DNA from: Pontibacter sp. FD36
GTDB taxonomy: Bacteria; Bacteroidota; Bacteroidia; Cytophagales; Hymenobacteraceae
Assembly: GCF_015686655.1 (NCBI RefSeq)
Contig: NZ_JADPMP010000003.1
Location: forward strand, 62,001 to 126,000
Reading direction: 5' to 3'
DNA length: 64,000 nucleotides
The position numbers and the translations under genes were made by a program. The notes below the pieces were generated by a model. It made no database searches. It saw only the letters and a list, made by a program, of their open reading frames with translations, and was not told the origin of the DNA. Each line of letters opens with the position of its first letter. The first letter of the stretch is position 1. Shown here one piece after another: positions 40,891-57,969 of this stretch.

Positions 40891-41025
40891 TCAGGTCCAA
40901 GCCATTTTTTGCAAATTGCGGAAAAGAAGAAGGTATGAGCTTTGAAAGAACACATGATATAAGTCATTTATTCTCTCAAATTAAATAACCTATTTCGCGA
41001 ACTATAATAGACAGAACATAAAACG

Positions 41026-41850: not shown

Positions 41851-41886
41851 TAGCTGAGCACAGGTGCGACAGCACTTAAAAGAGCA

Positions 41887-41923
41887 AACAGGGGCGGCCA
41901 GATGGCTGCCCCTGTTTGTTTGC
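41887..41923. terminator. Bidirectional terminator between purine nucleoside phosphorylase and CPBP genes
   Basis: AACAGGGGC.GCC pairs with GGC.GCCCCTGTT around AGAT at 41887-41916, followed by TGTTTG. It lies between convergent genes. Confidence 0.85.
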
Positions 41924-41929
41924 AGTATT

Positions 41930-42697
41930 TTACATGGTCAGATAGGCGAGGGCGAGCAGCGCTGCGTTAAACAAGCCGTGTGACACGATAGCCCAGGTCA
42001 GGCTGAAGCGAAGGCGGATATAACCCCAGAACAAGGCACCAATAAACTGCGGCACCACCAGTAAAGGTACAAGGGCGATGGGTAGGTGCAGGTTTTCATA
42101 GTTGGCCAGGTGCACCAGGCCAAATACGATTGTGAAGGTATAAAACACCGTTGGGAAACGCTTTTCCCAGAGGCGCCGCAAATACCAGGCACGCATATCC
42201 GAAAGTACTACCCAAATAGCCAGCATCAGGGCCACAAGCCAGATCAGGGCACTCAGGAGTGTGCTGATCTGCAGCATCTCAAGCAGGGTAGGGAGTATAA
42301 AAAAAATGATGGTCAGGAAAGCAACAAACAGCCGCATGCGGGTATAGCGCAAGGGGGCACGGAAGAAGAATTCCTCTATCGCAGGAACGATCACGGCTAC
42401 AGCCAATAGTACTAGCAGCGGGTTATTTTCCTCCAGGAAACGGCCCAGGCGATGACTGGCGAATGGGTTGTAACCCATCAGCTTGATCAGGCCGAATATG
42501 ATTACTGCTATACCCAGGCTCAGGATGAACTTGAGTACGAACAGTTGCAGCAGTGGCCTCCATACCTCCTCAGGCTTTTGATGCAGCGCCTCCAGTTGTT
42601 TAGGAGCTTTCAGAAAACGCCAGAAGGCCAGTGCGGTTTCTTTTGGACGAGGGCTTGGGTTCTCTCTAACCCGGTCAGGAGGTAAAGGTGCTTCCAT
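41930..42697 (-). CDS. CPBP-family intramembrane metalloprotease
   Basis: The 255-residue membrane protein carries the CPBP (Abi/Rce1-like) motifs: EE-x-x-x-R at 108-113 (EEFFFR), F-x-x-x-H at about 192-196 (FGLVH) and H240-N244 (SHGLFN). The sequence predicts six to eight helices. All putative zinc-site residues are present, so it may be an active glutamic/metallo protease in the inner membrane. Targets of bacterial members are mostly unknown. It lies 8 bases downstream of the DUF4249 gene on the same strand, so it is probably the last gene of the TonB-receptor/DUF4249 operon. Confidence 0.9.
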   Translation of the reverse strand: MEAPLPPDRVRENPSPRPKETALAFWRFLKAPKQLEALHQKPEEVWRPLLQLFVLKFILSLGIAVIIFGLIKLMGYNPFASHRLGRFLEENNPLLVLLAVAVIVPAIEEFFFRAPLRYTRMRLFVAFLTIIFFILPTLLEMLQISTLLSALIWLVALMLAIWVVLSDMRAWYLRRLWEKRFPTVFYTFTIVFGLVHLANYENLHLPIALVPLLVVPQFIGALFWGYIRLRFSLTWAIVSHGLFNAALLALAYLTM

Positions 42698-42705
42698 CGT
42701 TTGTT

Positions 42706-43521
42706 TTACTTCTCAATTACGACCGTTTTGCGGTTATAGGAGAGGTTTGTGAAGATGCCGATGCCTCCCTGCACGGAAGACACAATGCGCGAAGGCTGGG
42801 CAAATGGGTTTCCGTTGGCCCTGCGTGCATCCGAAATAGAGCTCAGGAAGTCGTAGTACTGCTTCTCGATGTGAAACAGCGATACGATCAGTGTATCGCC
42901 CTCTTCGTGATCATAGCCCGACCCGTAGGACACGCGCTGGCCATTGGTAAGCTGGTCACTGGATACGAAATCCCGCTGGGAGGAGTTGGACAGGCTGTCG
43001 CGGTGCACCATGTAGCGATAATAGTTCGCGGCATCCGGGTCGTCCTGGTAGGAAGTGAGCAGGTAGGCCTTGTTGCTTTCATTGAACTTCCACTCCACAG
43101 CCTCAATCGGAACCTGCCCCATGATGGTGGTAGTACCGGTCACGTGACGACCTTTCTTATCTTTGACCTCCAGCATAAGCACATCGCCGGGTTGCAGGTT
43201 GAGTTTCTCGTTTTTGCGATGAGTATAGTATTTGCCCGTCGCCTTGTTTTGAATGGGGCTGAAAGGCAGTTTGATCGTTCTGCCCTGGTGGGTGATGAAC
43301 ACTTCCGCATCCGGCACAAGGGGCAATTCGGGTTCGTTGAAGTAACTCACACTCTCCAGGACAACAGCCCGAAGGGGCTTGCCGGGCTCCAGGTAGCATT
43401 CAACCACGAGTTGTGATTCGTAGGGGGGTAACTTAATTTCCACTTCCTGCTCCATGTCACAGGATAACAGCAAAAAGAGTAGGGGCAACAGCAAGGTATA
43501 GATCGCTCGTCTGGTCTTCAT
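42706..43521 (-). CDS. DUF4249 lipoprotein
   Basis: The 271-residue protein has a lipoprotein signal (LLFLLLSC, Cys 21). The beta-rich domain has LVVECYLEPGKPLRAVVLESVSYF and the closing NPFAQPSRIVSSVQGGIGIF motif of the DUF4249 family. DUF4249 genes are usually found directly after TonB receptors in Bacteroidota, and the protein is likely to sit on the outer membrane with the receptor. The ATG shares its A with the receptor stop codon (TGATG), which predicts translational coupling. Ligand unknown. Confidence 0.9.
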   Translation of the reverse strand: MKTRRAIYTLLLPLLFLLLSCDMEQEVEIKLPPYESQLVVECYLEPGKPLRAVVLESVSYFNEPELPLVPDAEVFITHQGRTIKLPFSPIQNKATGKYYTHRKNEKLNLQPGDVLMLEVKDKKGRHVTGTTTIMGQVPIEAVEWKFNESNKAYLLTSYQDDPDAANYYRYMVHRDSLSNSSQRDFVSSDQLTNGQRVSYGSGYDHEEGDTLIVSLFHIEKQYYDFLSSISDARRANGNPFAQPSRIVSSVQGGIGIFTNLSYNRKTVVIEK

Positions 43522-45836
43522 CAGAACTTGAAATTATAGGTAACAGAAGGTATAACCGGGAATAGCGACACCTGCTTGGCCCGGAAGCCGAGGGTTTCGT
43601 TGTCGTCTTCGTCCTTCACCTGTTCAAAATACACAAAGTATGGGTTGCGACGGTTATAGGCGTTGTAGGCATTAAAGGTCAGGTCGGCCTCGCCACGTTT
43701 GGGCTTAAACTTGAGCACAAGGCCCAGATCCAGCCGGTGGAAAGCATCCAGGCGGAAGCTGTTGCGGTCGCTGTATACAGGCACCACGGTAGCACTTTTG
43801 CCCTGCACATCCTGAAAGGCGAAGCGGGCCACGGGCAGCGAATAGGCATTGCCGGTGCCATACACAAAAGCACCGGTCAGGTTGATGCGCTTGCTCAATT
43901 CGTGCAGCACCACCACACTCAGGTCATGGCGGCGGTCGTAGCGGGTCGGGAAGCGGCGGCCTCCGTTGATATCGTCGAACTGGCGGTAGCTCCACGACAA
44001 GGTATAGCCTACCCAGCCGGTGGTGCGTCCTTTTATCTTTTCGAGGTATACCTCATTGCCGTAGCTCTCGCCCTTGCCAAACAGAAACTCCCCTTCCAGG
44101 TTGTCATTCACAAAGAGATTGGCCCCGTCGCGGAAATCGATCTGGCGGTGCATCCACTTGTAGTAGAGTTCGTTGGTGACCATGTAGCGGCCTCCGCCAA
44201 AGAGATGGCTTATACCTGCGGCCACCTGTTGGGAGCGTTGCGGCTTCACGTAGTCATTGGATGGATACCAGATGTCAGTTGGCAATGAAGCACCTGAATT
44301 GGCTACCAGGTGGATGTACTGCATCATGCTGGCATAGCTGGCTTTCAGAGAGGTGTTCTCGCTGAGGCTATACCTGGCAGAAGCCCGCGGCTCAAAAGCA
44401 CCGTAGGTTTTGCCACCGCTAGTGAAAGCCGACATACGAAGGCCGTAGTTAAGCGAAAGCTGGCTACTTACCTGGAAGTCATCTGCTATATAAGCAGCGG
44501 CTTCTGTGGCTTCGTAGTCATTGCCTGCCCCAAAACTGATGCGGTCATCATCTGAATCGAAATTGAGGCGGCCGATCGTGAAGTTGTGCCGGGTGGCCAT
44601 AGCACCGAATTGCAAGGTATGTCCTTTGTCCAGGATCAGGCTGAAGTCGGTTTTGAGAGCAACATCACGGATATCGGAGGTCAGGCTGAAGCTGAACACG
44701 TCGATCTTGTTGCTGACGTTGTACTGGTAGCTGCTGCCCGAAAGCGTCGTATTTACCTGAAAGCGCGGATTGAACTTATGCTGCCAGCGCAAAGCGCCGA
44801 CCTTATTCCCCCAGTCGAAACCAAACTGAAAGTCTGCATCGTTAAACCCGAAGAAATCATGACCAAAATAGCCACTTACAAACAGTTCGTCTTTCTCACC
44901 AAGCTTATAGTTTGCCTTGCCATTCAGGTCATAAAAGTAGTAGTCAGGTATAGGATTGTAGTCCTCTTTGCCTTCTTGTATGCGGTTGATCTGGCGTGTG
45001 AATACATCAAAATAGGTGCGCCGACCGGAGAGAACAAACGAAGATTTGTCTTTCACAATAGGCCCATCTACGGTCAGGCGCGAAGCAATCAGACCGATGC
45101 CGCCCGTTACACCAATGCGCTCTTTGTTACCTTCCCGCATCTTCACATCCACCACAGACGACAGTCTGCCGCCAAACTGTGCCGGGAAACCACCTTTATA
45201 CAGTTCCACACTTTCAACCGCATCCGGGTTGAACACGGAGAAGAAGCCGAACAGGTGGGAGGCATTGTAGACCACGGCGTCATCGAGCAGCACCAGGTTT
45301 TGGTCAGGACCACCACCGCGCACATACAGGCCCGAGGCTCCTTCGCCGCCCGATTGCACACCCGGCTTCAGTTGCAGCGCCTTGATGAGGTCAACCTCGC
45401 CGAAGATGGCCGGCAGGAGTTTGGCTTCCCGAGTGGTCAGCGTCTCAACGCTCATCTGGTTGGCATTGAGTTTCTGCTGGAGCGAATTAGCTTCGATCAC
45501 AACTTCACGTAACTGACTGTTGGCTGGCAACAAGGCAAAGTTAATAGTTAGGTCCCGGTCAGTAACCTCGATGGTACGGGTAGTAGTTTCGTAGCCGATG
45601 TAAGTGGCCTGTAAGGTATGGCTGCCTTCGGGCAGTTGCAGGGTATAGAACCCAAGGGCATCCGTTGCAGCACCGATACGAAGCTCGGGAACAGATACAG
45701 TAGCCCCTATCAGGGCGTCTTCGCTGCCGGTGCCCCGAACGTAGCCACTAATGGTGTAGGTGCTCTGTGCAAATACATCAGGGGCAAGGAAACTGAGTAG
45801 ACAAATAATGTATACAGCGAAAGCTGGTAAGCGCAT
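43521..45836 (-). CDS. TonB-dependent receptor with carboxypeptidase-like N-terminal domain
   Basis: The 771-residue protein has a signal peptide (about 1-23, ending DVFAQ), a CarboxypepD_reg-like domain (about 25-110, with GYVRGTGSEDALIGATV), a TonB plug (about 120-230, GLYVRGGGPDQNLVLLDDA) and a 22-strand barrel ending TYNFKF. The receptor class pairs with DUF4249 lipoproteins; the imported ligand is not known and nothing in the sequence fixes it. The YNRRNPYFVYFEQ motif near the C-terminus is conserved in this class. It is the first gene of a three-gene unit (receptor, DUF4249, CPBP protease). Confidence 0.92.
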   Translation of the reverse strand: MRLPAFAVYIICLLSFLAPDVFAQSTYTISGYVRGTGSEDALIGATVSVPELRIGAATDALGFYTLQLPEGSHTLQATYIGYETTTRTIEVTDRDLTINFALLPANSQLREVVIEANSLQQKLNANQMSVETLTTREAKLLPAIFGEVDLIKALQLKPGVQSGGEGASGLYVRGGGPDQNLVLLDDAVVYNASHLFGFFSVFNPDAVESVELYKGGFPAQFGGRLSSVVDVKMREGNKERIGVTGGIGLIASRLTVDGPIVKDKSSFVLSGRRTYFDVFTRQINRIQEGKEDYNPIPDYYFYDLNGKANYKLGEKDELFVSGYFGHDFFGFNDADFQFGFDWGNKVGALRWQHKFNPRFQVNTTLSGSSYQYNVSNKIDVFSFSLTSDIRDVALKTDFSLILDKGHTLQFGAMATRHNFTIGRLNFDSDDDRISFGAGNDYEATEAAAYIADDFQVSSQLSLNYGLRMSAFTSGGKTYGAFEPRASARYSLSENTSLKASYASMMQYIHLVANSGASLPTDIWYPSNDYVKPQRSQQVAAGISHLFGGGRYMVTNELYYKWMHRQIDFRDGANLFVNDNLEGEFLFGKGESYGNEVYLEKIKGRTTGWVGYTLSWSYRQFDDINGGRRFPTRYDRRHDLSVVVLHELSKRINLTGAFVYGTGNAYSLPVARFAFQDVQGKSATVVPVYSDRNSFRLDAFHRLDLGLVLKFKPKRGEADLTFNAYNAYNRRNPYFVYFEQVKDEDDNETLGFRAKQVSLFPVIPSVTYNFKF

Positions 45837-45996
45837 CTAACTAAAATTAAAACCGGGGGCTTTGAGAATCAGGCACAAAGGTACATACAAATAACCTGAT
45901 CCGCCCCAGAAAAACGACCCTTATCAGATCGTCTTAAGTAGAATTTTTTAATGAAACAGCGCGATTCTCAAAATGTTCCTTTTTGGGGAGGGATTC

Positions 45997-47868
45997 TTAA
46001 GGCATGGTATCGTTTAGCCAGGAGGCTCGCAGGCGAAGCTGTCGCTCCGATGGAGAGGCAACCGGCTCTAGCAGGTGCAGTACTTCCCGTTTGACAGCGG
46101 TCACTTTTCCGGTGAGTTTTTTGGGTTTCACATTGCCCTTAGCGTCTTTGCGTCCTACGGTGATCTCTATTTTGCTGCCCGGCTTGGCCTGTTGTAGCTC
46201 TTCGCCTATGATGTCGCGGATGTTCATGGGTGTGATCTCTCTACCGTTAAAAGCCAGCAGTTGGTCTCCTTCCTTAAAGCCCATTTGCTTTCCGAACTCG
46301 TCCATGTCATCCGCCTCAGCCACCGTGATCTTGTCGGCTTCGCGGTCATAGCCTGGCACAAAGCCTCCGTAGGAATTGACCAGCTGCACCGAAACAGGCT
46401 CGTATTTAACTCCTACCTTGTTGAGCAGTTCCTCCAGCGGCAGGCGCTCACTGCCTTCCACATAGCGGGCAAAGAAGGTGCGAATCTCCGGGTAAGTGAG
46501 TTCGGCTATCTTATCAAACAGCTCGTCGTCTTTGAAAGGACGGCCTTTGCCGTAGGTTTTGGCCAGGTCCTGCATCAGGTCTACCAGACCGTACTTGCCA
46601 TCTGACAGGTCGCGCAGCTGTATATCCAGCGCCATCCCGATCAGAGCTCCCTTTTGGTACACATTACCATATTGGTTTTCGTGCTGGTCCAGCACTTTGG
46701 CACTCATTTCCGTGAAGGGCAGGGTATCGTTAAAAGCCATGGAGTTGAAAATATACTCCCGGATCTTCTGCATGAACTCGTCTACCGAGACCAGGTTTTC
46801 GTGCACCTGCACATGCGAAGCAAAGTATTCTGTTACGCCCTCATACAACCACAAGTGCTTCGACATGCGCGGGTTGATGAAGTCAAAGTCGTGGATTTCT
46901 TCGGATTGAATGGAAAGTGGCGTCACAATGTGAAAGAACTCGTGGGCCGCCACGTCGCGCATGGTGCTGTTGAAACGCTCCTCTGGCATCTCAGGCAGGT
47001 AGTAAACCGAAGAGTTGGAGTGCTCCAGTGCACCATAAGAACCCGACTTGCCTGGTCGCTCCGGCACGTAGATCAGGAAAGCGTACTTGTCGACCGGCAG
47101 GGTGCCGCCGAGGTAGCTGCGCTGCGCTTCCAGAATATCACGGATGTTGTCGGCGATGGGTTTGGAAGTAACCCGGCCAGTAGGGGAATATACGGATACT
47201 AGCACGTCAGTCCCACCCAAATTCAGTACAGTCGTGTCAGGTTGATTGTACATCAGCGGCGAGTCGGCCAGTTCCACATAATTGGGCACTGTATAGGTGT
47301 CGGCAGTGGCTGTGCTGGACGTAGCCTGCAGTGCCGTGGAGCCATAAAAACCGGCGGGTTTGGTAACCGTGAGCTCGTAAGGCACCTGCTTTAGTCCGTC
47401 GAAATAACCCACGAAGCCAAACGGGTTGAGCAGAAAGTTCTTGCCTTCTTCGATGTTGGTGCCGCCCGGTTCAAATACCACATCCTGCCGTCTTTCGGCA
47501 TCAAATGTATCGTCTACCCAATAAGTGATTCTGTCCAGGTTCTGAGCCTGCGTAATGCGCCAGCGGTTGGTGTCGATCCGCTCCACTGGCAGCGGCTTGC
47601 CCTGCTTGTCCAGCGCCTGAAACTCTGATACGAACTTGCCAAAGTCAGATACAGAGTAGGTGCCGGGCACGATCTTGGGCATGTTATAAATGGCCTCGCC
47701 CTGCTTGATGGCCGGTGGACGCAGGCTTACTGGTACCCTATCACCTTTCACCTGGGTGAGGTCGATGGTAACGGCATAGCGAGGTTCAGGTGTCGACTGA
47801 GTGGCAACTGAGGAACAGCTGAAATGAAGGCTGAGCAGCAGGAACAGGATCGTTTTGGTTAATTTCAT
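45997..47868 (-). CDS. M61-family aminopeptidase with PDZ domain, lipoprotein
   Basis: The 623-residue protein begins with a lipoprotein-like signal (LLSLHFSC). The M61 (glycyl aminopeptidase) fold has an N-terminal beta domain (about 30-220) and a thermolysin-like catalytic domain with the zinc motif HEFFH at 309-313 and the third ligand in WLYEGVTEYF (E343). A PDZ domain lies at about 525-600 (FKEGDQLLAFNGREI). All catalytic residues are intact. It likely trims peptides in the periplasm. It starts 24 bases after the DoxX gene stop, in one run with DoxX and the SDYE-repeat gene. Confidence 0.92.
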   Translation of the reverse strand: MKLTKTILFLLLSLHFSCSSVATQSTPEPRYAVTIDLTQVKGDRVPVSLRPPAIKQGEAIYNMPKIVPGTYSVSDFGKFVSEFQALDKQGKPLPVERIDTNRWRITQAQNLDRITYWVDDTFDAERRQDVVFEPGGTNIEEGKNFLLNPFGFVGYFDGLKQVPYELTVTKPAGFYGSTALQATSSTATADTYTVPNYVELADSPLMYNQPDTTVLNLGGTDVLVSVYSPTGRVTSKPIADNIRDILEAQRSYLGGTLPVDKYAFLIYVPERPGKSGSYGALEHSNSSVYYLPEMPEERFNSTMRDVAAHEFFHIVTPLSIQSEEIHDFDFINPRMSKHLWLYEGVTEYFASHVQVHENLVSVDEFMQKIREYIFNSMAFNDTLPFTEMSAKVLDQHENQYGNVYQKGALIGMALDIQLRDLSDGKYGLVDLMQDLAKTYGKGRPFKDDELFDKIAELTYPEIRTFFARYVEGSERLPLEELLNKVGVKYEPVSVQLVNSYGGFVPGYDREADKITVAEADDMDEFGKQMGFKEGDQLLAFNGREITPMNIRDIIGEELQQAKPGSKIEITVGRKDAKGNVKPKKLTGKVTAVKREVLHLLEPVASPSERQLRLRASWLNDTMP

Positions 47869-47892
47869 GTAGTGCGGACGTGAGTTAACAAC

Positions 47893-48345
47893 CTAGTTAA
47901 CGGTCACGGGCTGCTTTTGGGTTTGTACTTGCCTTTTCTCTAAAAAAGAATCGACAGAAAGGGGACCGGCACCGTTGAACAGGTAAAAGAAACCTGCGAA
48001 AATAAGCTCAGCTGCCGGATAGTATTGCGGAAAGGTCTGCCCTATGTGCACAATTATAATAGCAGCCGTGAAATTGATGATCAGTAACAAGCCGGCGATC
48101 CGGACTCCCCAGCCTAGCAGGAGCATCAGGCCAATCAGAAACTGGGTATAGACCGAAAGATGTGCGGCCACCAGCGGGTAGGGCACTCCATGCGCCTGCA
48201 GAAAATCCCGGAACTCGAGCATTCGCTCCCAGCTAAACACGTTATCCTGTACGCCATAGATCAGAAAAATGCCCATTGCAAAACGCAGGAACACCACTCC
48301 ATAGGCTTTGTGACGACGAAAAAAAGCGAAAGCGTTCCTTGTCAT
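47893..48345 (-). CDS. DoxX-family membrane protein
   Basis: The 150-residue protein has four predicted transmembrane helices (about 15-33, 60-80, 85-102 and 110-126), the DoxX layout. Conserved-looking parts are VVFLRFAMGIFLIYGVQDN and LSVYTQFLIGLMLLLG. DoxX-like proteins are linked to quinol oxidases, detoxification or thiol stress, but most have no proven role. It starts three bases after the SDYE-repeat gene's stop codon and is followed by the M61 peptidase gene, so it is in the middle of an operon. Confidence 0.87.
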   Translation of the reverse strand: MTRNAFAFFRRHKAYGVVFLRFAMGIFLIYGVQDNVFSWERMLEFRDFLQAHGVPYPLVAAHLSVYTQFLIGLMLLLGWGVRIAGLLLIINFTAAIIIVHIGQTFPQYYPAAELIFAGFFYLFNGAGPLSVDSFLEKRQVQTQKQPVTVN

Positions 48346-48348
48346 AGG

Positions 48349-49569
48349 TTACCTGAGAGCACTGATGACTTTGTTCTTCTCATAATCAGAGCCAATGGTA
48401 TTGGCTGCTTTCTCCACTTCTGCACGCAGATCTTTATTATCGGAAGGTATAGCACTCGCAATATTGCGGAGAACTTTGCCTTTTTCGTAGTCGGAGCTTA
48501 TGCGGCTTACGACCGGCAGCAGCTCTTTGTACTGGGCCTGTGACAGTTTGTGGTTCTTTACAATTGAGTTGATGATTTTTGCCTTCTCATAGTCCGATGA
48601 AAATTTATCGATGATGGAAAAGGCTGACTTGTAGTTGTGCTGGATGAAGTCAGACTGTTTGGTCAGTTGCTGCAGCACTTTGGCTTTTTCATAGTCAGAA
48701 GATATTTTGCCCGTCTGTTCCAGCGCCATGGCCATACTCTCTTTGCTCAGATCCGGTGTCTCCAGCAAATAAAGCAATGCCTTGCGCCGCTCGTAGTCAG
48801 AACTGATTTTGTCGCTCACCTGTAGGTAGCTGCTCACCACATCCTTGTTTTTTAGATGTGCAGCGGTTACCGTACCCAAAGCTTTTCGGCGCTCATAGTC
48901 GGAAGATACGTGCTTGTCCACAAACTGCAACGACTGCTTCACATCGGCAGGTTTCAGGTCTGGCTGCTGGTACAGGTGTTGCACAAAGCGCATCTTCGCA
49001 TGTTCACTACCTGCTTTTTCTGCTTCAGCAAGTACTCCTTTCGCACCTTCTTTGCCATACAGGTCTTTTACTAACTCGGCTATACCTATGCCGGTGTTGG
49101 CCATCAGGTCCGGCATCACCTGCTGCAGCCACTCTCTGCCAGCTGGCTCATAAGCTACCTTTTTCCCATTCTCTGTGTAAGTGCGGGTTAGGTTACCGTT
49201 CGCATCGCTCGTGATCTCGAGCCGCTTCGTATCATCATTAACCGAGCGCATGTACTTGAGGTAGCCGTTCGGGGAGATGCTTTTGATGTCTTTCAGGTCA
49301 TCGGTAAGGGTGACAGTTCCCTGGCGTTTCAGTTCTTCCCGCTTGTTGTTATCTGTGTTGATGTATACCTGCTCTCCGTTCTTACCGTCTTTGCCACCTA
49401 CCTGTATCCGGACATTGTTGTTTTTCTTCTTTGTCTTCACGGTGTCCTGCTGCATTACTTCCACACCGGTAATAAGGCGCAGACTGGTAGAGGCGGCTGG
49501 GCGCAGGTCAAGCATGCTCAGGACGCCAGCGGCAAGTGAAGCAAAAAAGATAGTAGATGGCTTTGTCAT
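48349..49569 (-). CDS. Secreted SDYE-repeat protein of unknown function
   Basis: The start is ATG at 49567-49569, since it opens a signal peptide (MTKPSTIFFASLAAGVLSM...); an in-frame ATG 29 codons upstream lies in the spacer. The 406-residue protein has a beta-rich region (about 70-150) with SISPNGYLKY and ITSDANGNLTRTY. Seven helical repeats of exactly 34 residues (one step of 35) follow from about residue 188, with core (I/V)SSDYE(K/R)xK(V/A)L; the first is degenerate (SEHAKMR). I recall similar sequence C-terminal to membrane M56/BlaR1-type proteins. Here it stands alone without a peptidase. A nearly continuous operon with DoxX and M61 suggests an envelope or stress role; function is unknown. 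Confidence 0.85.
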   Translation of the reverse strand: MTKPSTIFFASLAAGVLSMLDLRPAASTSLRLITGVEVMQQDTVKTKKKNNNVRIQVGGKDGKNGEQVYINTDNNKREELKRQGTVTLTDDLKDIKSISPNGYLKYMRSVNDDTKRLEITSDANGNLTRTYTENGKKVAYEPAGREWLQQVMPDLMANTGIGIAELVKDLYGKEGAKGVLAEAEKAGSEHAKMRFVQHLYQQPDLKPADVKQSLQFVDKHVSSDYERRKALGTVTAAHLKNKDVVSSYLQVSDKISSDYERRKALLYLLETPDLSKESMAMALEQTGKISSDYEKAKVLQQLTKQSDFIQHNYKSAFSIIDKFSSDYEKAKIINSIVKNHKLSQAQYKELLPVVSRISSDYEKGKVLRNIASAIPSDNKDLRAEVEKAANTIGSDYEKNKVISALR

Positions 49570-49611
49570 AGTTTTTATTTTTAATGATGCATTTTGTTGG
49601 GTAAAGGATGC

Positions 49612-49645
49612 TTCAGCGGGTATCTTTTTTTGACAACCCGCTGAA
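49612..49645. other. Hairpin in the spacer between permease and SDYE-repeat genes
   Basis: TTCAGCGGGT and ACCCGCTGAA form a perfect 10-base stem with a 14-base loop. No T run follows on the minus strand, so it is not a standard terminator. It may protect RNA or weaken read-through from the transport operon. Confidence 0.45.
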
Positions 49646-49685
49646 TTCACCTTCAATTAACAATACAAACACAAACTCAATTATA

Positions 49686-52076
49686 TTACTCCGTGCGTAG
49701 CGCCTGCACCGGGTCCTCCAGCGCGGCTCGTGTAGCTTTAAAGCTCACGGTCAGGATAGCAATGAGTAGCGCCAACAGTCCCGAGATTAAGAATACCCAG
49801 ATGCTGATCGGCGTGCGGTAGGCGAAGTCCTGCAGCCACTGTTGCATGCCGTACCAGGCGAGCGGACTCGCGATCAGAATGGCCAGGCACACCAGCACAG
49901 CAAAGTCTTTGGTTAAAAGCACTACTATACCTGAGATCGAGCTGCCCAACACCTTGCGGATACCAATCTCCTTGGTGCGCTGTTCTGTTGTAAAGGAGGC
50001 TAGCCCAAACAAGCCCATGCAGGCGATGATGATGGTGAGGAAAGTAAAATAGCCGAAAATGGTCAGCATTTTTTCTTCCGCCCGGTACTGCTCGTTGAAG
50101 CTGTCATCCAGAAAGAAGTAGTCCATCGGGTGTGAAGGAGCGAGGCGCTGCCAAACGCTCTCCACATGCGCGAGGGTCGCCTCCATGTTTTCAGGGGTAA
50201 TGCGTGCCATCAGGTAACCATTGTTCTGCGGGGCGAGCATAATCACAAGCGGCTCTATCTGGCTGTGCAGCGAGGTATAGTTAAAGTCTTTCACTACCCC
50301 GATCACCTTGGCCCGGGTGGTATCGGAGCCACCAATGCGTTTGCCAACGGGGTCAGTCCAGCCCATCACTTTGGCGGCCGCTTCATTGACCATAATGCCG
50401 TACTGCAGGTCCGTGCTCATGTCTTTTGAGAAGTTCCTGCCTGCTACCACAGGTATAGCCATTAGGTCGAAGAACTCATAATCCACCCAAATGGTGTTAA
50501 AAGTTTTCTCTACCATCTGGTTGTCGCGCTCCACATTGAAAATGATAACGCCTGTGCTCGCTCCCGGAATCATGGCGCTGGTGGTCGCGCTGGTAATATT
50601 CGGGTGCTTCAGCAATTCGGACTTCACGACAGGCATTTTGTTGACTATCGTTGTATCGCCGCTGGGAATGTCCACCACCAGCACTTGTTCTTTATTGAAG
50701 CCAAGGTCCTGCGTCTTGAGGTAGTGCATCTGGCTGTACACGACCACCGTGCCGATGATCAGTACCAGCGAAATGGTGAACTGCAGAACCACAAGCCCTT
50801 TTCGCAAAAAGGCTCCACTGCCTGATGGCATTTTGCCTGTTTTCAGGATATCGACCGGCTTGAAATGTGACAGCACAAGTGCCGGATAACTACCTGCAAT
50901 CAAACCGATGAAAAGGCCGATCCCGAGCAGCGTCAGCGCAAAGGAAAGATCTAGGAAATAAGTGCCGGGTATATTTTTGTCAGCCAGTGCATTGAAGGTG
51001 GGCAGCATCAGTTCGACCATTACCAGGGCCAGTAGCACTGCCAGCAGTGTGAGCAGCACTGATTCGCTCAGGAACTGGGCGATGAGTTGCGAGCGATTAG
51101 CTCCTACCACCTTGCGGAGTCCTACTTCTTTTGCCCGCTTGGTCGCACGTGCCGTCGCCAGGTTCATGTAATTGATGGAGGCGATCAGGAGGATGAAGAG
51201 ACCAACAAATGAGAAAATATAGATGTAGGATTTTTTCCCAACCGGAAAGGCCTCCCACAGGTAGTCGGTGTTCAGATGGATGTCTGGCAACGCTTGCAGG
51301 TGCAGTTTCACACGTTCTGTCGTGTTGGGGCGCCCGGGTGATACACGACGCTCCACAAAAGCGGGCAGTTGTGACCGAAGTGCCGAGGCATCGCCAGCGT
51401 TTCTGAGCAGCACATAGGTATAGCTGTTTGTGTTGCCCCAGTTGGTGCGCATGTTATTGCGAGCTTCTGCAGGTATGGTGCTGAAGGAGGTAAGCACGTT
51501 AGGGCGCATATGGGCCGCGTCCACAGACTCGAATATACCTGTCACTTTATAGGACTGGTTGCCAATGCGGAGGGTACTGAACATGGCATCCAGCGGATCG
51601 TTAAAGAACTTCGCCGCCACATCTTTTGATAGCACCATCGTGTTTGGCTCCATCAAGGCTGACTTAGAATCACCCTCCAGCATTTTGTAGTCAAAGAGCT
51701 GAAAGTAATTGCTGTCTGCCCAAAAGGTATAGTCGATGGTAATGGCTTTTTCATCTAAGCGAAGCACCTGCTTGCCACGGTTGATCATGCGGGTAGAAGC
51801 TTCCACTTCGGGGAAGTCTGCTGCCAGGGCAGGGGCTAGGGCTGCGTGGGTAACAGAGGCTTTTTCAACTTCATCCTCTACAATCAGGTCGTTGACGACG
51901 CGGTATATCCTGTCATGCTTCGAGAAGGCCTTATCATAGCTGAGCTCATGCTGCACATACAGGTATATGAGGACGCAGGAGGCAATACCGATGGCCAGAC
52001 CAACGATGTTGATGGCAGCATACACTTTGTTTCGTGTCATGTTGCGCCAGAAGATGAGAAGGTAATTCTTGAGCAT
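49686..52076 (-). CDS. ABC transporter permease (MacB/FtsX type, eight-helix)
   Basis: From ATG at 52074-52076 the protein has 796 residues; an in-frame GTG seven codons upstream is possible. It is a fusion of two FtsX-like halves, each with a MacB-type periplasmic domain. Helices lie near residues 15-37, 275-300, 325-350, 375-395, 420-440, 665-685, 715-735 and 750-770. Motifs such as RATKRAKEVGLRKVVGANR and EQRTKEIGIRKVLGSS are the coupling helices that contact the ATPase. Such permeases transmit force across the inner membrane for export or lipoprotein release rather than pumping through themselves. The ATPase and adaptor genes lie upstream on the same strand. Confidence 0.92.
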   Translation of the reverse strand: MLKNYLLIFWRNMTRNKVYAAINIVGLAIGIASCVLIYLYVQHELSYDKAFSKHDRIYRVVNDLIVEDEVEKASVTHAALAPALAADFPEVEASTRMINRGKQVLRLDEKAITIDYTFWADSNYFQLFDYKMLEGDSKSALMEPNTMVLSKDVAAKFFNDPLDAMFSTLRIGNQSYKVTGIFESVDAAHMRPNVLTSFSTIPAEARNNMRTNWGNTNSYTYVLLRNAGDASALRSQLPAFVERRVSPGRPNTTERVKLHLQALPDIHLNTDYLWEAFPVGKKSYIYIFSFVGLFILLIASINYMNLATARATKRAKEVGLRKVVGANRSQLIAQFLSESVLLTLLAVLLALVMVELMLPTFNALADKNIPGTYFLDLSFALTLLGIGLFIGLIAGSYPALVLSHFKPVDILKTGKMPSGSGAFLRKGLVVLQFTISLVLIIGTVVVYSQMHYLKTQDLGFNKEQVLVVDIPSGDTTIVNKMPVVKSELLKHPNITSATTSAMIPGASTGVIIFNVERDNQMVEKTFNTIWVDYEFFDLMAIPVVAGRNFSKDMSTDLQYGIMVNEAAAKVMGWTDPVGKRIGGSDTTRAKVIGVVKDFNYTSLHSQIEPLVIMLAPQNNGYLMARITPENMEATLAHVESVWQRLAPSHPMDYFFLDDSFNEQYRAEEKMLTIFGYFTFLTIIIACMGLFGLASFTTEQRTKEIGIRKVLGSSISGIVVLLTKDFAVLVCLAILIASPLAWYGMQQWLQDFAYRTPISIWVFLISGLLALLIAILTVSFKATRAALEDPVQALRTE

Positions 52077-52235
52077 GGATTTTACCGCTTTAGTCACTCA
52101 TTTCATTTGGTCAATAGCCTATACCTGCAAAACTATTGTAATGCAGGGACCACCACTCACATTGATGCGAAGCACCTCGCTGCTTTTGCAGATGTGCTGT
52201 CATCACATGAGACAGAAAGATTTCTGCTATCAGCC

Positions 52236-52955
52236 TTAAAGCAGTTCGGCAGCGTGTTTTCTGGCGTTGAGGCTCTCCGTCACGATCTGACCGTCAAACA
52301 GGTTAACGATGCGGTGTGCATATTCGGCATCAGAAGGAGAGTGCGTTACCATCACTACCGTAGTGCCGGCATCGTTAAGCTCAGAAAGCAGCGACATCAC
52401 CTCACGGCCATGTACTGAGTCCAGGTTACCGGTCGGTTCGTCAGCCAGGATCAGGCTTGGGTTGGATACTGTAGCACGGGCAATGGCGACACGCTGCTGC
52501 TGACCACCCGAGAGCTGCTGTGGGAAGTGCGCATGGCGGTGGGCGATACCCATACGCTCCATGGCCTCTTTCACACGTTTGTCGGCTTCAGCACGCGGTA
52601 TACCCAGGTAAGCTAGTGGCAAACCGATGTTCTCCTCCACCGTCAGCTCATCGATCAGGTTGAAACTCTGGAACACAAAGCCCAGGTTATGCTTGCGGAT
52701 CTTGGCACGCTGGCGCTCCGATGCATGGCTGATGTCCTGGCCCAGGAAGCGGAAAGTGCCGCCCGAAGGACTGTCAAGCAAACCGAGGATGTTCAGCAGC
52801 GTGGATTTACCACAACCGGATGGACCCATCACCGCCACAAATTCGCCTTTGGCGATGCGCAGGTCTACACCCGCCAGGGCAGTCGTCTCAACCGTATCGG
52901 TGATGTATTTTTTTTCTAACTGCTGTGTTTCGATGATAAAATCTTCCTTGCTCAT
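52236..52955 (-). CDS. ABC transporter ATP-binding protein (LolD/MacB family)
   Basis: The 239-residue ATPase has Walker A GPSGCGKST (about 44-52), the Q-loop FVFQSFNLIDELT, signature LSGGQQQR (about 147-154), Walker B ILADEPTGNLD and the H-loop VMVTHS. These features put it in the MacB/LolD group that powers FtsX-type permeases. It would form a homodimer on the cytoplasmic side of the permease encoded 159 bases downstream. The gene lies 47 bases after the adaptor gene, in one probable operon. Confidence 0.95.
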   Translation of the reverse strand: MSKEDFIIETQQLEKKYITDTVETTALAGVDLRIAKGEFVAVMGPSGCGKSTLLNILGLLDSPSGGTFRFLGQDISHASERQRAKIRKHNLGFVFQSFNLIDELTVEENIGLPLAYLGIPRAEADKRVKEAMERMGIAHRHAHFPQQLSGGQQQRVAIARATVSNPSLILADEPTGNLDSVHGREVMSLLSELNDAGTTVVMVTHSPSDAEYAHRIVNLFDGQIVTESLNARKHAAELL

Positions 52956-53002
52956 GATTTCTATATTGTTGATTGATGATTGTTAAATTGTTGTTTTAGC
53001 AA

Positions 53003-54256
53003 TTATTTGAGTTCCAGCCGGTCTATGTCGCCGTAGCTCTCATAGGAGGAGAGAACCACCTTCTCGCCTGGCTTTAGGCCGTCAAGTACTTCGTAATGCT
53101 TTGGGTTCTGACGACCCAGTTTGATGGAACGCTTGGTCGCATGGTCGCCCGACTTATCCACCACGAATATCCAGCTGCCGCCTGTGCTTTGGTAGAAACC
53201 GCCGCGTGGCAGGAGCACGGCCTTGCCGCCATCATTCAGGTTCAACCTGATTTGCAATGTCTGACCGCGGCGTATACCTTGCGGAGTGGCGTCCCCGGCA
53301 AATTCCAGGTCTACCTGAAATGTACCGCCCTGCACCTCAGGGAACACCTTAGCCACTTTTAGTTTATAGTTCTGTCCGTTGAAGTCGAAGTTGCCCTCCA
53401 ATCCAGGATATATGCGGGAGATGTAGTGCTCATCAATAGAGGCTCTCACCTTGTAGCCGCTCATGTCGTCTACCTGTCCAATGTTCTCGCCGGCGCCTTT
53501 AGACTCACCAACCTGGGCTTTCAGCGTAGAAAGCTGGCCGGATATAGGGGCTGTCACATACAAGCTGTTCAGCGTGTTGCGGGCCATGTTAATATTGGCC
53601 TGCATTCTTCTGATGGATTCATCCAGCTGGCGCAGGCGGTCATCCAAAAGTTTTGCGTCCTGCTTCACAGAGCGGTCACCAAGGATCTTGCGTTTTTTGA
53701 GGTACTCGTACTCTTCTTTCGATGCCTGGAATTCCTCCTGCGAGATCACCTTTTCCTCAAACAGTACTTTGTTCCGGTTGTAGGCCCGCTCAGCTGTTGC
53801 CAGGTTGTATTCAATCTCGGCCAACTGGTTCAGCTGCCTGATCTGCTCCTGCTTCATGGTGATCTCAGAGTTCTGACGTTCATTCATCAGGTCGTAGAGC
53901 TGCGTTTCACGGGTCATGAAGTCGATCTGGAGCGTTGTGTTGGAAAGCTTCAGAATAGTATCTCCTTTCTCCACCATGCGACCGTCATCGGTATAGATCT
54001 TCTCCACACGGCCGCCTTCTGATATGTCAAGGTAGAATGTTTTGAGAGGCTCCACCGCGCCATCGATGGCGATGAACTCTTGAAACACGCCGTTCTCTAC
54101 GGTGCCTACGGTTATGCGCTTGCTGTCAACGTTGAGTTTAGAGGAGTGTTCTGCAAAAAGTAGGTTGTATAGAATCACCACCAACAGCAGGGCAGCACCG
54201 GCTGCAGCAGCGATTTTCTTAGGAGTATATTTTTTCTTTTCTATGACGCGATCCAT
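53003..54256 (-). CDS. Periplasmic adaptor of an export system (HlyD/MacA family)
   Basis: The 417-residue protein has an N-terminal membrane anchor (about 15-34, AAGAALLLVVILYNLLFA), a barrel-sandwich/lipoyl domain split by a long coiled coil (about 105-215) and a beta-barrel domain at the C-terminal side. GGRVEKIYTDDGRMVEKGDTIL and PISGQLSTLKAQVGESKGAGE are the two halves of the lipoyl domain. Adaptors of this class link an inner-membrane MacB-type transporter to a TolC-like outer channel, but no TolC gene is in the window. A sigma-54-like promoter lies 39 bases upstream. Confidence 0.92.
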   Translation of the reverse strand: MDRVIEKKKYTPKKIAAAAGAALLLVVILYNLLFAEHSSKLNVDSKRITVGTVENGVFQEFIAIDGAVEPLKTFYLDISEGGRVEKIYTDDGRMVEKGDTILKLSNTTLQIDFMTRETQLYDLMNERQNSEITMKQEQIRQLNQLAEIEYNLATAERAYNRNKVLFEEKVISQEEFQASKEEYEYLKKRKILGDRSVKQDAKLLDDRLRQLDESIRRMQANINMARNTLNSLYVTAPISGQLSTLKAQVGESKGAGENIGQVDDMSGYKVRASIDEHYISRIYPGLEGNFDFNGQNYKLKVAKVFPEVQGGTFQVDLEFAGDATPQGIRRGQTLQIRLNLNDGGKAVLLPRGGFYQSTGGSWIFVVDKSGDHATKRSIKLGRQNPKHYEVLDGLKPGEKVVLSSYESYGDIDRLELK

Positions 54257-54294
54257 AGTGGGGAAAGAGTTTCTGTGTAATGCTGCACAAGGAT

Positions 54295-54311
54295 TGCCAA
54301 TAAATGTGCCA
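54295..54311 (-). promoter_or_regulatory. Sigma-54-like promoter of the adaptor gene
   Basis: On the minus strand TGGCAC (54311-54306), five bases, then TTGGCA (54300-54295). The -24 element matches TGGCAC exactly; the -12 element has TTGG where TTGC is usual, so the GC is one base late. The start codon is 38 bases downstream. The adjacent divergent gene encodes a sigma-54-type activator. Confidence 0.45.
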
Positions 54312-54546
54312 TTGTAATTAAAATGCTGTATAACAGTGTTTTGTGAATTGTTTGGCTGGCGATATCGAGCTAAACTGTTCGGTATCGTACACTACTTTGT
54401 CTGTATGCGAACACTTGAACACACGAGTAAAAATACACTGTTTTTCTCTTTCTGAATTTACGGCGGGACACAGGGGGATAACTTTTGGTATTCTGAAACA
54501 GAAAGTATTTCTTTACCCCGAAGAATTTGTAAAGTCCTTGCAGCCC

Positions 54547-55926
54547 ATGCGGAAAACCGATTGTAAAATACTGGTGGTAGATGACGAAGAAGACATCCTG
54601 TTGGCAAGCAGATTGCTGCTCAAGCAGCACTTTGCTACGGTGGTGACAGCTTCGGATCCCTACAGCATTCCGGCTTTGCTGCAGGAGCACCGTTTTGATG
54701 TGGTGCTGCTGGATATGAATTATAGCACCGGTGCCACCTCCAGCAAGGAAGGACTGCACTGGCTGAAACAGATCCTGAAACTGGCACCGGCAGTCAAGGT
54801 AATTCTGATGACGGCCTATGGCGATATTGAACTGGCAGTGCGTGCCCTTAAAGAAGGGGCCACCGATTTTGTCTTAAAACCCTGGCAGAACGATAAGCTG
54901 GTGGCTATCCTCAAGACTGCCTGCCAGCAGAATAGGGGAGTGGGCAAACGCAGTGCGGAAACAGCCGAGCAAAACCAGACCGCCTTCCACTATGCCGGTT
55001 TTATCGGCGTATCACCGGCCATGCAGCGGGTATACCAGACGATAGAAAAAGTAGCCGGTACAGATGCCAATGTGCTGATACTCGGAGAAAACGGCACAGG
55101 CAAGGAAGTAGCGGCACGTGCCCTGCACCGTAAGTCGAAACGGGCCGATAAGGTCTTTGAGAAGGTAGACCTGGGAGCTATTAGTGAGACACTTTTTGAA
55201 AGCGAGTTGTTCGGCCATGCCAAAGGCGCCTTTACCGATGCCAAGGAAGAGCGCATGGGGCGGATGGAGGCGGCGAATGGCGGAACCTTGTTCCTGGACG
55301 AAATAGGCAATCTTTCGCTCCCACTTCAGGTCAAGCTCCTGTCTGTGCTGCAAAACCGACAGGTGATCCGGCTCGGTACCAACAAGCCTCGCCCCATCGA
55401 TATCCGCCTGATCTGCGCGACCAACATGCCGCTTTACGACATGGTGCGGGATGGCACTTTCCGGCAGGACCTGCTTTACAGGATGAACACCGTAGAGATA
55501 TACCTGCCCCCGTTGCGGGAGCGTCGTGAGGATATCCGGTTGCTGGCGGAGCACTTCCTGCGCGTGTACAGCCAGAAATATGAACGTGAAGGACTAGGTA
55601 TAGCACCTGGCACCATTCGCCGGCTGACCGAGTACCGCTGGCCGGGCAATATCCGGGAGCTCGATCATGCCCTGGAGCGAGCCGTGATTTTGTGTGACCA
55701 GCAGGAACTGCAGCCGGAGGATTTTTACTTTGCCCCGGACGATGTATCGGCTAAGGTCACCGGTCAGGAGCCTGTTTTGGAAAACGACTATACCTTGGAG
55801 GCATTGGAAAAAATGATGGTGCAGAAAGCCCTTGTAAAACACGCCGGCAATATTACCCATGCAGCAAGGGAACTCGGTATCACCAGAACAGCTCTTTACC
55901 GCCGAATAGAAAAACATGGTTTATAA
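54547..55926 (+). CDS. NtrC-family sigma-54-dependent response regulator
   Basis: The true start is ATG at 54547 (MRKTDCKILVVDDEED). Upstream in-frame sequence would add 68 unrelated residues. The 459 residues have a receiver domain (D12, D13, phospho-acceptor D56, T89, K111), a sigma-54 interaction AAA+ domain with Walker A GENGTGKE (180-187) and GAFTDA (227-232), and a Fis-type helix-turn-helix at the C-terminus (GNITHAARELGITRTALYRR). GAFTDA replaces the canonical GAFTGA loop. The kinase gene overlaps its end by 11 bases. Its likely targets are the divergent export genes. Confidence 0.95.
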   Translation: MRKTDCKILVVDDEEDILLASRLLLKQHFATVVTASDPYSIPALLQEHRFDVVLLDMNYSTGATSSKEGLHWLKQILKLAPAVKVILMTAYGDIELAVRALKEGATDFVLKPWQNDKLVAILKTACQQNRGVGKRSAETAEQNQTAFHYAGFIGVSPAMQRVYQTIEKVAGTDANVLILGENGTGKEVAARALHRKSKRADKVFEKVDLGAISETLFESELFGHAKGAFTDAKEERMGRMEAANGGTLFLDEIGNLSLPLQVKLLSVLQNRQVIRLGTNKPRPIDIRLICATNMPLYDMVRDGTFRQDLLYRMNTVEIYLPPLRERREDIRLLAEHFLRVYSQKYEREGLGIAPGTIRRLTEYRWPGNIRELDHALERAVILCDQQELQPEDFYFAPDDVSAKVTGQEPVLENDYTLEALEKMMVQKALVKHAGNITHAARELGITRTALYRRIEKHGL

Positions 55927-57295
55927 CCGCTTCAGAGTTAACCTACTGTTGCGGGTGATGCTGTTGATCATCAGCATTGTCGGCATCACACTGGTTCTAT
56001 ACCGCACTGAATGGTACATGACAGCCATTTGCATGGGATTGTTGCTGCTTTTTCAGCTCTATGACCTGGTGCATTTTGTAGAACGAACCAACCGCGATAT
56101 TTCAAGCTTTCTGGAAGCTATTCAGCACTCAGACTTTACACATCGCTTCGCAATAAAAGGTGGCAATCCGACCTACAAGGAGCTTTATCAGTCGTTTAAC
56201 GATGTAGCAGATGCCTTCCAGCGCATCAAAACGGATAAACAGGTACACCACTTGTACCTGCAGGCGATCGTGGAGCACATTGGCGTAGGTATCGTTTCTT
56301 TTGAGGAGAATGGGCGTGTGGAGTTGGTCAACCATGTGTTGAAAGAAGTACTGCACACGCCTCACCTGGAGCACATAGAATCGTTGGGCCGCATCAGTGA
56401 GGAGCTGGTGGAAACGTTGCACAGCATCGGTCACAACGAGAGAAGGCTTGTTAGCCTTCAGGTACGGGATGAGCAACTGCAGCTGGCCCTGCATGCCACT
56501 ATCCTGTTCTCGCAGGGGCGTACCTTGAAGATTGTGTCGTGCCAGAATATCAAATCAGAGTTAGAGGAGCAGGAGTTGCAAACCTGGCAGAAATTGATCC
56601 GGGTGCTCACCCATGAAATTATGAATACCATCACACCGGTCATCTCCCTCACGGCTACAGTTTCGGATTTGGTAGAAGAGGAGGTGGTCGCAAAGGCTGT
56701 AGCTGGAGAAATGCCAGAGGAGGAGGCGCTGGAAGATATACAGGCGGGATTACGCACGATTGAGAAACGAAGTACCGGGATGCTCCACTTCGTGCAGAAC
56801 TATCGCCGTCTGATGCGGGTGCCCACGCCAGAAGTTCAGACCGTTAAAGTAAAGGACCTGCTCAAAAATGTACAGACCCTGCTGCAACCTGAAATGGAGG
56901 CCAGGCAAACGAGGCTCTCCATCTACCTGCGCCATGAGAAGGCTGAACTGCAGCTAGACCCGGAACTGATCGAACAGGTGCTGATCAACCTGATCAAGAA
57001 CGGGATGGAAGCATGTCAGCAGTCAGCAAGCCCCTGTGTGGAAGTGATTGCCTATCAGGAAGAGCAGGACAGAGGTCGCTTTCGGATCGATGTGCAGGAC
57101 AACGGGACTGGGATTGCTCTTGAAGACCTGGATAAGATTTTTATTCCTTTTTTTACCACCAAAAAGCAGGGCTCAGGTATAGGTCTCAGCCTCTCTAGAC
57201 AAATCATGCGCCAACATGGAGGCACTATACGTGTCAGCAGCCCCCCAGGCGGTCCTACCACCTTCAGCCTGATTTTTCGAATCAATGATGAGTAG
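55916..57295 (+). CDS. Sensor histidine kinase, partner of the NtrC-family regulator
   Basis: The 459-residue kinase has two N-terminal helices (about 8-28 and 32-50), a HAMP/PAS-like region (about 60-215) and a HisKA-like box RVLTHEIMNTITPVISL with phospho-acceptor H233. A HATPase_c domain follows with N box LINLIKNGMEAC, G1 DNGTGI and G2 GSGIGLSLSRQI. It would phosphorylate the regulator whose gene overlaps by 11 bases. The periplasmic loop between the helices is only a few residues, so the signal is probably sensed in the membrane or the cytoplasm. The left arm of a 17-base inverted repeat spans its stop codon. Confidence 0.93.
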   Translation: MVYNRFRVNLLLRVMLLIISIVGITLVLYRTEWYMTAICMGLLLLFQLYDLVHFVERTNRDISSFLEAIQHSDFTHRFAIKGGNPTYKELYQSFNDVADAFQRIKTDKQVHHLYLQAIVEHIGVGIVSFEENGRVELVNHVLKEVLHTPHLEHIESLGRISEELVETLHSIGHNERRLVSLQVRDEQLQLALHATILFSQGRTLKIVSCQNIKSELEEQELQTWQKLIRVLTHEIMNTITPVISLTATVSDLVEEEVVAKAVAGEMPEEEALEDIQAGLRTIEKRSTGMLHFVQNYRRLMRVPTPEVQTVKVKDLLKNVQTLLQPEMEARQTRLSIYLRHEKAELQLDPELIEQVLINLIKNGMEACQQSASPCVEVIAYQEEQDRGRFRIDVQDNGTGIALEDLDKIFIPFFTTKKQGSGIGLSLSRQIMRQHGGTIRVSSPPGGPTTFSLIFRINDE

Positions 57296-57410
57296 TGAGT
57301 AATTAAGAATGGTTTGGAAAACGTTGAGTGGAAGTGCCAAGCAGCTGAAGCTTAGGTATATCAGCTTCCGCTACTCTTTTATTACAAATTAAAAATTACT
57401 CACTACTCAT
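57288..57410. repeat. Perfect 17-base inverted repeat bracketing the kinase-trxA spacer
   Basis: ATGAGTAGTGAGTAATT at 57288-57304 and its exact complement at 57394-57410 enclose 89 bases. The left arm contains the kinase stop codon, and the right arm ends ten bases before the thioredoxin stop. Confidence 0.8.
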
Positions 57411-57419
57411 TATTAACTC

Positions 57420-57725: not shown

Positions 57726-57756
57726 AGCTCTATTGTTTAATTGTTTTTACGAGGTG

Positions 57757-57764
57757 CAAAGCTA
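57757..57764 (-). promoter_or_regulatory. Candidate -7 box of trxA
   Basis: On the minus strand TAGCTTTG matches TAnnTTTG, leaving a leader of about 25 bases. Only a TTTTAG-like word is near the -33 position. Confidence 0.35.
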
Positions 57765-57969
57765 AAGGATAAAACCCGCAGACACTAAAAAGCTGCAAGG
57801 AGGCTAGCAAAGGTTCCCAATTTCCTTTCGAGTAATAACACTGCAAATTACACCAGGGACGCGGCATTTAGATGCAGGGTAGAGGGTGCTATACCTGGTT
57901 TGTCCACTAACCGGGAACTATACTAAGTGCGGTGTGATTATTGTACTGACAAGTTTTTCCCTGATTAAC

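Follow-up and report, generated by a model that had tools for sequence, protein, structure and literature searches.

SDYE-repeat proteins of Bacteroidota: a family of predicted helical solenoids, encoded beside an exporter in Pontibacter and beside envelope-signalling genes in many relatives

Here we report that a 406-residue protein of Pontibacter sp. FD36, encoded in the 64,000-nucleotide stretch of contig NZ_JADPMP010000003.1 analysed in this study (hereafter the window), belongs to a real, old and uncatalogued family of repeat proteins, the SDYE-ladder proteins, whose fold is of a known kind. We propose, with a probability of about 0.5, that the SDYE protein is an exported or membrane-anchored sensing subunit of two modules, acting as an extracytoplasmic sensor or co-receptor. 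The computed support for this reading consists of a predicted repeat fold, a uniform ladder of residues running through the repeats, and signalling genes that recurrently accompany those of relatives; the association with envelope signalling is strong in the relatives and weaker in the window. No paper on the family or its gene cassette was found in the open-access literature searched.

The gene and its repeat array

The gene runs on the minus strand from an ATG at 49569 to a stop codon at 48349-48351. The longest mechanically called reading frame begins at a TTG 29 codons upstream, but the alignment of relatives begins at the ATG instead. The features of the protein are as follows.

48349..49569, minus strand: SDYE-repeat protein, 406 aa (open reading frame; relatives align from its ATG)
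49510..49554, minus strand: N-terminal hydrophobic segment, residues 6-20, putative export signal or membrane anchor (Kyte-Doolittle; low-confidence helix 6-19)
49135..49392, minus strand: beta-rich N-module, residues about 60-145, holding SISPNGYL (strands in two low-confidence models; conserved block)
49015..49143, minus strand: linking helices with conserved TGIG, residues 143-185 (helices 143-159 and 163-184 in the model)
48904..49008, minus strand: repeat 1, degenerate (SEHA), residues 188-222 (alignment, register)
48802..48903, minus strand: repeat 2 (SDYE), residues 223-256 (predicted structure, register and motif positions, as for all following repeats)
48700..48801, minus strand: repeat 3 (SDYE), residues 257-290
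48598..48699, minus strand: repeat 4 (SDYE), residues 291-324
48496..48597, minus strand: repeat 5 (SDYE), residues 325-358
48391..48495, minus strand: repeat 6 (SDYE), residues 359-393
48352..48390, minus strand: repeat 7, helix A only (SDYE), residues 394-406

Exact SDYE tetrapeptides stand at residues 223, 257, 291, 325, 359 and 394 (n = 6), in steps of 34, 34, 34, 34 and 35 residues, and more than one SDYE was obtained in 0 of 20,000 shuffles of the protein. A first-pass annotation, made from the sequence alone, had described seven SDYE repeats with a period of 34 residues and 35 at the last step. The periodic array is real and its periods are borne out by the exact copies, but it comprises six of these plus a degenerate first unit (SEHAKMRF, 35 residues ahead of the second) rather than seven equal repeats; the annotation placed that unit correctly at residue 188, and its remaining starts are about one lower than ours because it counted from the first S of SSDYE. 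Tandem Repeats Finder detected no DNA tandem array in the gene at a score of 30 or more, which fits old repeats.

Hydropathy reaches its Kyte-Doolittle maximum of 2.02 over residues 6-20. No obvious signal-peptidase site was seen in the N-terminus of the window protein; several relatives have a clear signal peptide when read by eye, and secretion of the window protein, as first annotated, is plausible. The N-module is a conserved block in alignments A1 and A3, and when modelled alone it is beta-rich at a mean pLDDT of 46.6. Behind it, T159, G160 and G162 are invariant in alignment A1, within linking helices for which model confidence is low before residue 162. With its N-module, TGIG helices and uniform ladder repeats (alignments A1 and A3; ladder statistics), the window protein has the makeup by which the family is defined.

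Besides full-length proteins, the family includes the N-module alone, the repeats on the C-terminus of M56 proteins, and the N-module on an M56 protein. The N-module without repeats is found in proteins of about 120 aa (L094-L096 and L176), while at L177:2274-4058 it follows the peptidase part of an M56 protein, again without repeats. The proteins of L094-L096 look lipoprotein-like by eye and share a common neighbourhood.

Predicted fold and tests of kinship

In an AlphaFold2 model built with five close sequences, residues from about 163 to 405 form stacked helices arranged in two-helix hairpins. Block pLDDT is 73-93 for residues 161-200 and 89-97 from about residue 201 on, in agreement with the helical solenoid proposed at first; most of the first 160 residues fall below 50. 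The serine of SDYE is located at the start of helix A in the model, and S-x-x-E is a helix capping box.

VPS35, PP2A PR65, importin alpha and other HEAT/ARM proteins, which share the two-helix solenoid, are near the top of the VIA-align matches. The best of these has Z 13.2 and rmsd 5.0 over 275 residues, and since a Z near 13 is a level common among helical repeats and may mean only their common arrangement, the solenoid looks HEAT/ARM-like in form with no specific kin. No sequence match to HEAT/ARM proteins was found: identity to the window protein is 8-9% in the top two rows, and no HEAT/ARM Pfam model matched it up to E 10. Fold-search lists without a family exclude nothing. The first annotation had set its view of the repeats against a known TPR or HEAT fold accompanied by a match to a characterised family; the predicted fold looks HEAT/ARM-like, and no match to a characterised family was found. 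Its statement that the repeats are not TPRs by sequence stands, as no TPR model is among the four Pfam matches of the window protein up to E 10; one other member (of 19) matched a nucleoporin TPR model at E 0.02.

The best Pfam match of the window protein is DUF4476 (PF14771), a weak likeness within the repeats that recurs at E <=1 in 13 of 19 members (best 5e-05). We rejected membership in DUF4476 because the score of 16.3 bits is under the gathering cut-off of 22.5 and the profile-profile comparison is weak, with probabilities of 0.4% and 4.1%. NCBIfam gave nothing usable and PDB sequence searches no credible match for the window protein. The N-module region matched designed or repeat proteins in the PDB (best 1.3e-07, with no stretch passing alone), which we judged unspecific, and the weak hits of individual members scattered over Pfam and NCBIfam (e.g., Glycos_trans_3N at 3.2e-05) were put down to chance.

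A ladder word kept uniform within each protein

Five columns around the SDYE serine (-1, +1, +2, +3 and +6) are alike across the repeats in most proteins and differ between proteins. Many of the 60 full-length proteins are close relatives; the 59 with five or more units were reduced to 34 proteins less than 60% identical, counts made with a simple register finder that misplaces a few units (e.g., in L093 and L163). Among these 34, repeat identity within proteins exceeds that between proteins by 0.42 at +2 and +3, 0.28 at +1, 0.25 at +6, 0.18 at -1 and 0.13 at +5, and by at most 0.09 at the remaining columns. When residues were shuffled over proteins, z was 19-40 at the five columns, with smaller nonzero excess at others such as +5, 0, +9, +4, -2 and -3. 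The words include SDYE, SDFE, SDHE, SDHY, SDHH, SDYY, NDHY, SSSE, SNSE, SSGD, SPGD, SSYD and SSFD. The ladder is not universal: words are mixed in the sigma-linked L090 and L092 and in several proteins of genus g220.

At non-ladder columns, likeness is 0.16 between repeats of one protein and 0.15 between different-index repeats of two proteins, while same-index repeats of two proteins reach 0.24 and exceed different-index repeats in 284 of 313 protein pairs. At the ladder residues themselves, codon identity is 0.441 where 0.441 is expected (34 proteins, 17 of them above expectation). We therefore rejected recent duplication or gene conversion, given non-ladder columns that are barely homogenised, codons at expectation and no tandem array in the DNA. 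Since the repeats are not homogenised outside the ladder and their codons are mixed, it is evidently selection, not copying, that keeps the word uniform. Repeat positions clearly correspond as orthologues within genus g13, and even so one species there (L152) carries N in place of S in nine of 11. An acidic +3 is most often accompanied by a basic +6 (107/179 units), and an aromatic +3 by an acidic +6 in 37 of 90 units and a basic one in ten. The residue pattern would place +2, +5/+6 and +9 together on a face of helix A that is apart from the hydrophobic columns +7, +8, +11 and +12.

Distribution and gene context of the family

Within the taxonomic family of Pontibacter, matches were found in at least 27 of 200 genomes, comprising ten full-length proteins in the genus (the window's included), nine in two other genera and eight short or decayed forms. 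A 19-row profile matched at least 13 of 395 genomes across the phylum, a 22-row profile at least 37 of 291 in the order and at least six of 146 in another class, and a 14-row profile at least 12 of 395 in the window's own class. The genome samples overlap, and the counts are lower bounds because few candidates were scored per genome. With so few matches across the sampled genomes, the family is sporadic in Bacteroidota. Such proteins may also occur in Proteobacteria. Searches for homologues of the window protein on plasmids and phages, for homologues of two M56-linked relatives on plasmids, and for homologues on viral contigs found none.

Of 60 full-length proteins, the window's included, 34 are encoded with a LytS-type kinase and ten, from Pontibacter, with an exporter; seven (g6) have no shared signalling genes, three directly follow a BlaI-M56 pair, two lie downstream of a sigma-70-type factor and four have other contexts. 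These counts exclude L174, which has no protein of full length, the N-module proteins of L176 and L094-L096, the M56 protein of L177, the short or decayed forms of L055-L062, and L147, which shows the SDYE gene followed by a kinase gene and then a second kinase where the contig ends; L033-L036 duplicate the places of L037-L040, and each place was counted once. Signal-transduction genes are adjacent or within two genes in 39 of the 60. The window protein was at first called stand-alone, which understates the company that these relatives keep.

In a maximum-likelihood tree of the 60, the exporter-, g6-, M56- and sigma-linked proteins each form one group, and six context changes are needed versus a mean of 24.7 when contexts are shuffled. 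The exporter and g6 groups fall together beside kinase-linked proteins of the same family (L046 and L047) and of f61. Subject to the customary uncertainty of rooting, the simplest reading is that the window lineage left a kinase-linked ancestor.

A kinase-pseudokinase cassette

In the 34 kinase-linked loci, the SDYE gene is directly upstream of the LytS-type kinase gene. Two kinase genes are seen in 33 of these (the contig ends in L150), and a LytTR regulator is third in 32 of the 33, L151 being the exception, so that the set of SDYE protein, kinase, pseudokinase and LytTR regulator is complete in 32 of 60 and at least partial in 34. The gap between SDYE and kinase genes is 21-255 bases in 24 of 33 loci, and in the other nine the genes overlap or are two bases apart. 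Pfam assigns the kinases to His_kinase (PF06580) and the regulator to LytTR, and in the 11 of 33 loci for which it was computed, the LytS-type kinases have three to four membrane-like segments at the N-terminus, followed by the kinase domain.

The first kinase has H at the phospho-His column in 33 of 33 and keeps the His box SPH(Y/F)LFN and ENA(V/L)KHN. The second (in L086, L087, L088, L148 and others) never has H there, with D in 13, P in nine, E in three and other residues in eight of 33; a His lies two residues earlier in two, and the EN of the N box is kept in three. With no phospho-His in any of the 33, the second kinase-like protein is, by its sequence, a pseudokinase. Of 291 genomes searched with a profile of the pseudokinase, 30 gave a score above 180 bits (next score 161), and every one of these belongs to the 37 that match the SDYE family, an exclusivity that is overstated because the profile was built from SDYE-linked loci. 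The pseudokinase gene is close to the SDYE gene on the same contig in 29 of the 30 and on another contig in G804. Later loci agree: L179, L180 and L181 each have the order SDYE-kinase-pseudokinase, the His column being occupied by Q, Y and E, and L180 ends before any LytTR gene.

M56- and sigma-linked relatives

The order BlaI-M56-SDYE is found in L091, L093 and L175, with Peptidase_M56 matched in the neighbour at each. The first-pass annotation had pointed to related C-terminal segments on M56/BlaR1-type proteins, and these exist: repeats follow the last membrane-like segment, clearly in L091 and L093 (three units each) and weakly in L175 (one unit). The best-kept M56 repeat has the word of the neighbouring SDYE protein, SSGD with SSGD in two operons and SPGE with SPGD in the third, a comparison of three operons only. 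Pfam matched no beta-lactam-binding sensor domain in the window protein (up to E 10), nor in the M56 protein of L091, L093 (both at E up to 0.1) or L175 (E up to 0.01). The sigma-linked SDYE genes of L090 and L092 are preceded by genes for a sigma-70-type factor and a putative anti-sigma protein, the latter named by position, as Pfam gave no match above cut-off.

The window neighbourhood and other Pontibacter loci

In the window, the SDYE gene lies in the order HlyD, ABC ATPase, MacB/FtsX permease, SDYE, DoxX, M61 peptidase and TonB-dependent receptor, and an NtrC-type regulator and a histidine kinase are divergent from the exporter genes.

45997..47868, minus strand: M61 peptidase with PDZ domain (Pfam Peptidase_M61; PDZ match of 21.6 bits, below the cut-off of 27)
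47893..48345, minus strand: DoxX-family membrane protein, 3 bases after the SDYE gene (Pfam DoxX)
49612..49645, no strand: inverted repeat TTCAGCGGGT/ACCCGCTGAA, perfect over 10 bases, between permease and SDYE gene (read from sequence)
49686..52097, minus strand: MacB/FtsX-type ABC permease (Pfam MacB_PCD, FtsX)
52236..52955, minus strand: ABC ATPase (Pfam ABC_tran)
53003..54256, minus strand: HlyD-type membrane-fusion protein (Pfam HlyD_3)
54343..55926, plus strand: NtrC-type response regulator, divergent (Pfam Response_reg, Sigma54_activat, HTH_8)
55916..57295, plus strand: histidine kinase, divergent (Pfam HATPase_c)

The LytS kinase-pseudokinase-LytTR set is absent beside the window gene, and no Rfam element was found within 41000-58000 of the window. 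The inverted repeat is a candidate regulator site or hairpin; its stem is kept in L033 and L034, changed in L036 and absent in L035. The four named relatives are Pontibacter species, the nearest being P. lucknowensis at 92%. Across the ten Pontibacter loci the MacB/FtsX permease is directly upstream in eight, one gene away in one and not seen in one (L039), and an M61 gene is within two genes downstream in all ten. In L039, the Pontibacter indicus locus, the ABC ATPase and SDYE genes show no FtsX permease gene between them.

The exporter does not need the SDYE protein, since its HlyD is present in at least 41 of 50 genus genomes and a full SDYE gene in only ten, all of which have that HlyD. 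Seven short-form loci (L055-L061, e.g., L056:9242-9514) have a short reading frame, of about 80-90 aa where read, which keeps the hydrophobic N-terminus of the SDYE protein without the repeats; L062 is a decayed form. The exporter is absent at the locus in all seven; HlyD is found elsewhere in four of those seven genomes, and we dropped joint loss of SDYE gene and exporter on that account.

Proposed role and alternative explanations

In the arrangement we suggest, 34-residue helical hairpins behind the beta-rich N-module build an alpha-solenoid which would present a regular stripe, formed by the start of helix A in every repeat. This stripe may bind an envelope ligand of periodic or extended form, or a partner whose own repeats offer a matching surface, and binding would then alter the activity of a membrane partner that itself has little extracytoplasmic sensor: a LytS-type kinase with its pseudokinase, an M56 protease or an anti-sigma factor. 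The SDYE protein is read as the outside sensing part because repeats occupy the place of the BlaR1 sensor in M56 proteins and because of the membrane layout of the kinases. In Pontibacter the lineage has probably lost the kinases, leaving the SDYE gene beside a MacB-type exporter, and the least certain step of the model is a tentative one, that the protein there senses or presents an envelope compound related to that exporter. Against a sensing role stand the seven g6 loci and four others of the 60, in which no such kinase, M56 or sigma gene adjoins, and the ten-member group of the window, which has the exporter instead, the divergent kinase/NtrC pair belonging to the exporter region.

An output gene may likewise lie beside a regulator. 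The SDYE protein could be an envelope-protection protein, a chaperone or scaffold, controlled by the neighbouring kinases, BlaI-M56 or sigma factor; regulators adjacent or within two genes in 39 of 60 loci fit a regulated gene equally well, and the SDYE gene comes first in its cassette, 21-255 bases ahead of the kinase gene in 24 of 33 loci. We consider this rather unlikely, as the repeats are built into M56 proteins at the BlaR1 sensor place, the N-module stands alone on the M56 protein of L177, and in 30 of the 37 matching genomes of the order the SDYE gene is accompanied by a single pseudokinase family. For Pontibacter alone, an accessory periplasmic subunit handing substrate to HlyD and MacB would suit the permease directly upstream in eight of ten loci (one gene away in another) and the HlyD in all ten genomes; it is made improbable by the 31 of 41 genus genomes that have this HlyD without a full SDYE gene, by L039, which shows no permease, and by the kinases beside which most members lie elsewhere. 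We give little credence to the binding of wall or outer-membrane material by a structural solenoid unrelated to signalling, a reading close to the first-pass annotation, which had proposed a helical solenoid that binds a wall or envelope ligand: the regular repeated surface and the seven g6 loci without shared signalling neighbours accord with it, and the family's repeated association with signalling genes of three unrelated sorts speaks against it.

If the SDYE protein is a sensing subunit, the missing extracytoplasmic partner would be named for LytS-type kinases with little outside domain, and one exported family would link two-component, BlaI-M56 and sigma/anti-sigma mechanisms. It would also offer a natural case in which one stripe is under coordinated selection over many repeats in the absence of gene conversion, of use in designing repeat proteins and in asking which periodic ligand Bacteroidota sense. 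A bolder form, which we think unlikely, is a repeat code: the same five-position word would be required in every repeat, be specific to the protein and be shared by the receptor and the exported protein of one operon, with the signal passing by repeat-to-repeat zippering with the membrane partner or by both reading one periodic ligand. Were it true, the four-gene cassette with its constant pseudokinase would be a new signalling architecture.

Comparison with known systems

The BlaR1 sensor domain is described as C-terminal, after the membrane part (PMC7593790). The SDYE family resembles BlaR1/MecR1-BlaI systems in that three relatives directly follow BlaI-M56 and the C-terminal repeats of those M56 proteins take the place given there to the BlaR1 sensor. 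It differs in that the M56 proteins of L091 and L093 gave no match to a beta-lactamase-like sensor, and in that the window protein, as first annotated, has no peptidase (no Peptidase_M56 match).

The best working analogue, not a relative, is LiaX of enterococci, whose helical part is suggested to bind antimicrobials and whose beta part to inhibit a kinase system (PMC10269926); LiaX-LiaFSR thus shares with our model one helical and one beta module and a similar working. The order is reversed, LiaX having its helices first and its PF13349 beta domain last. PF13349 was not matched in the window protein up to E 10, and the NCBIfam LiaX model was matched by one of 22 SDYE members at E 0.095, which is no evidence of kinship. 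Like known LytS/LytTR systems, SDYE loci have a His_kinase PF06580 protein and a LytTR regulator, to which they add a pseudokinase and a repeat protein.
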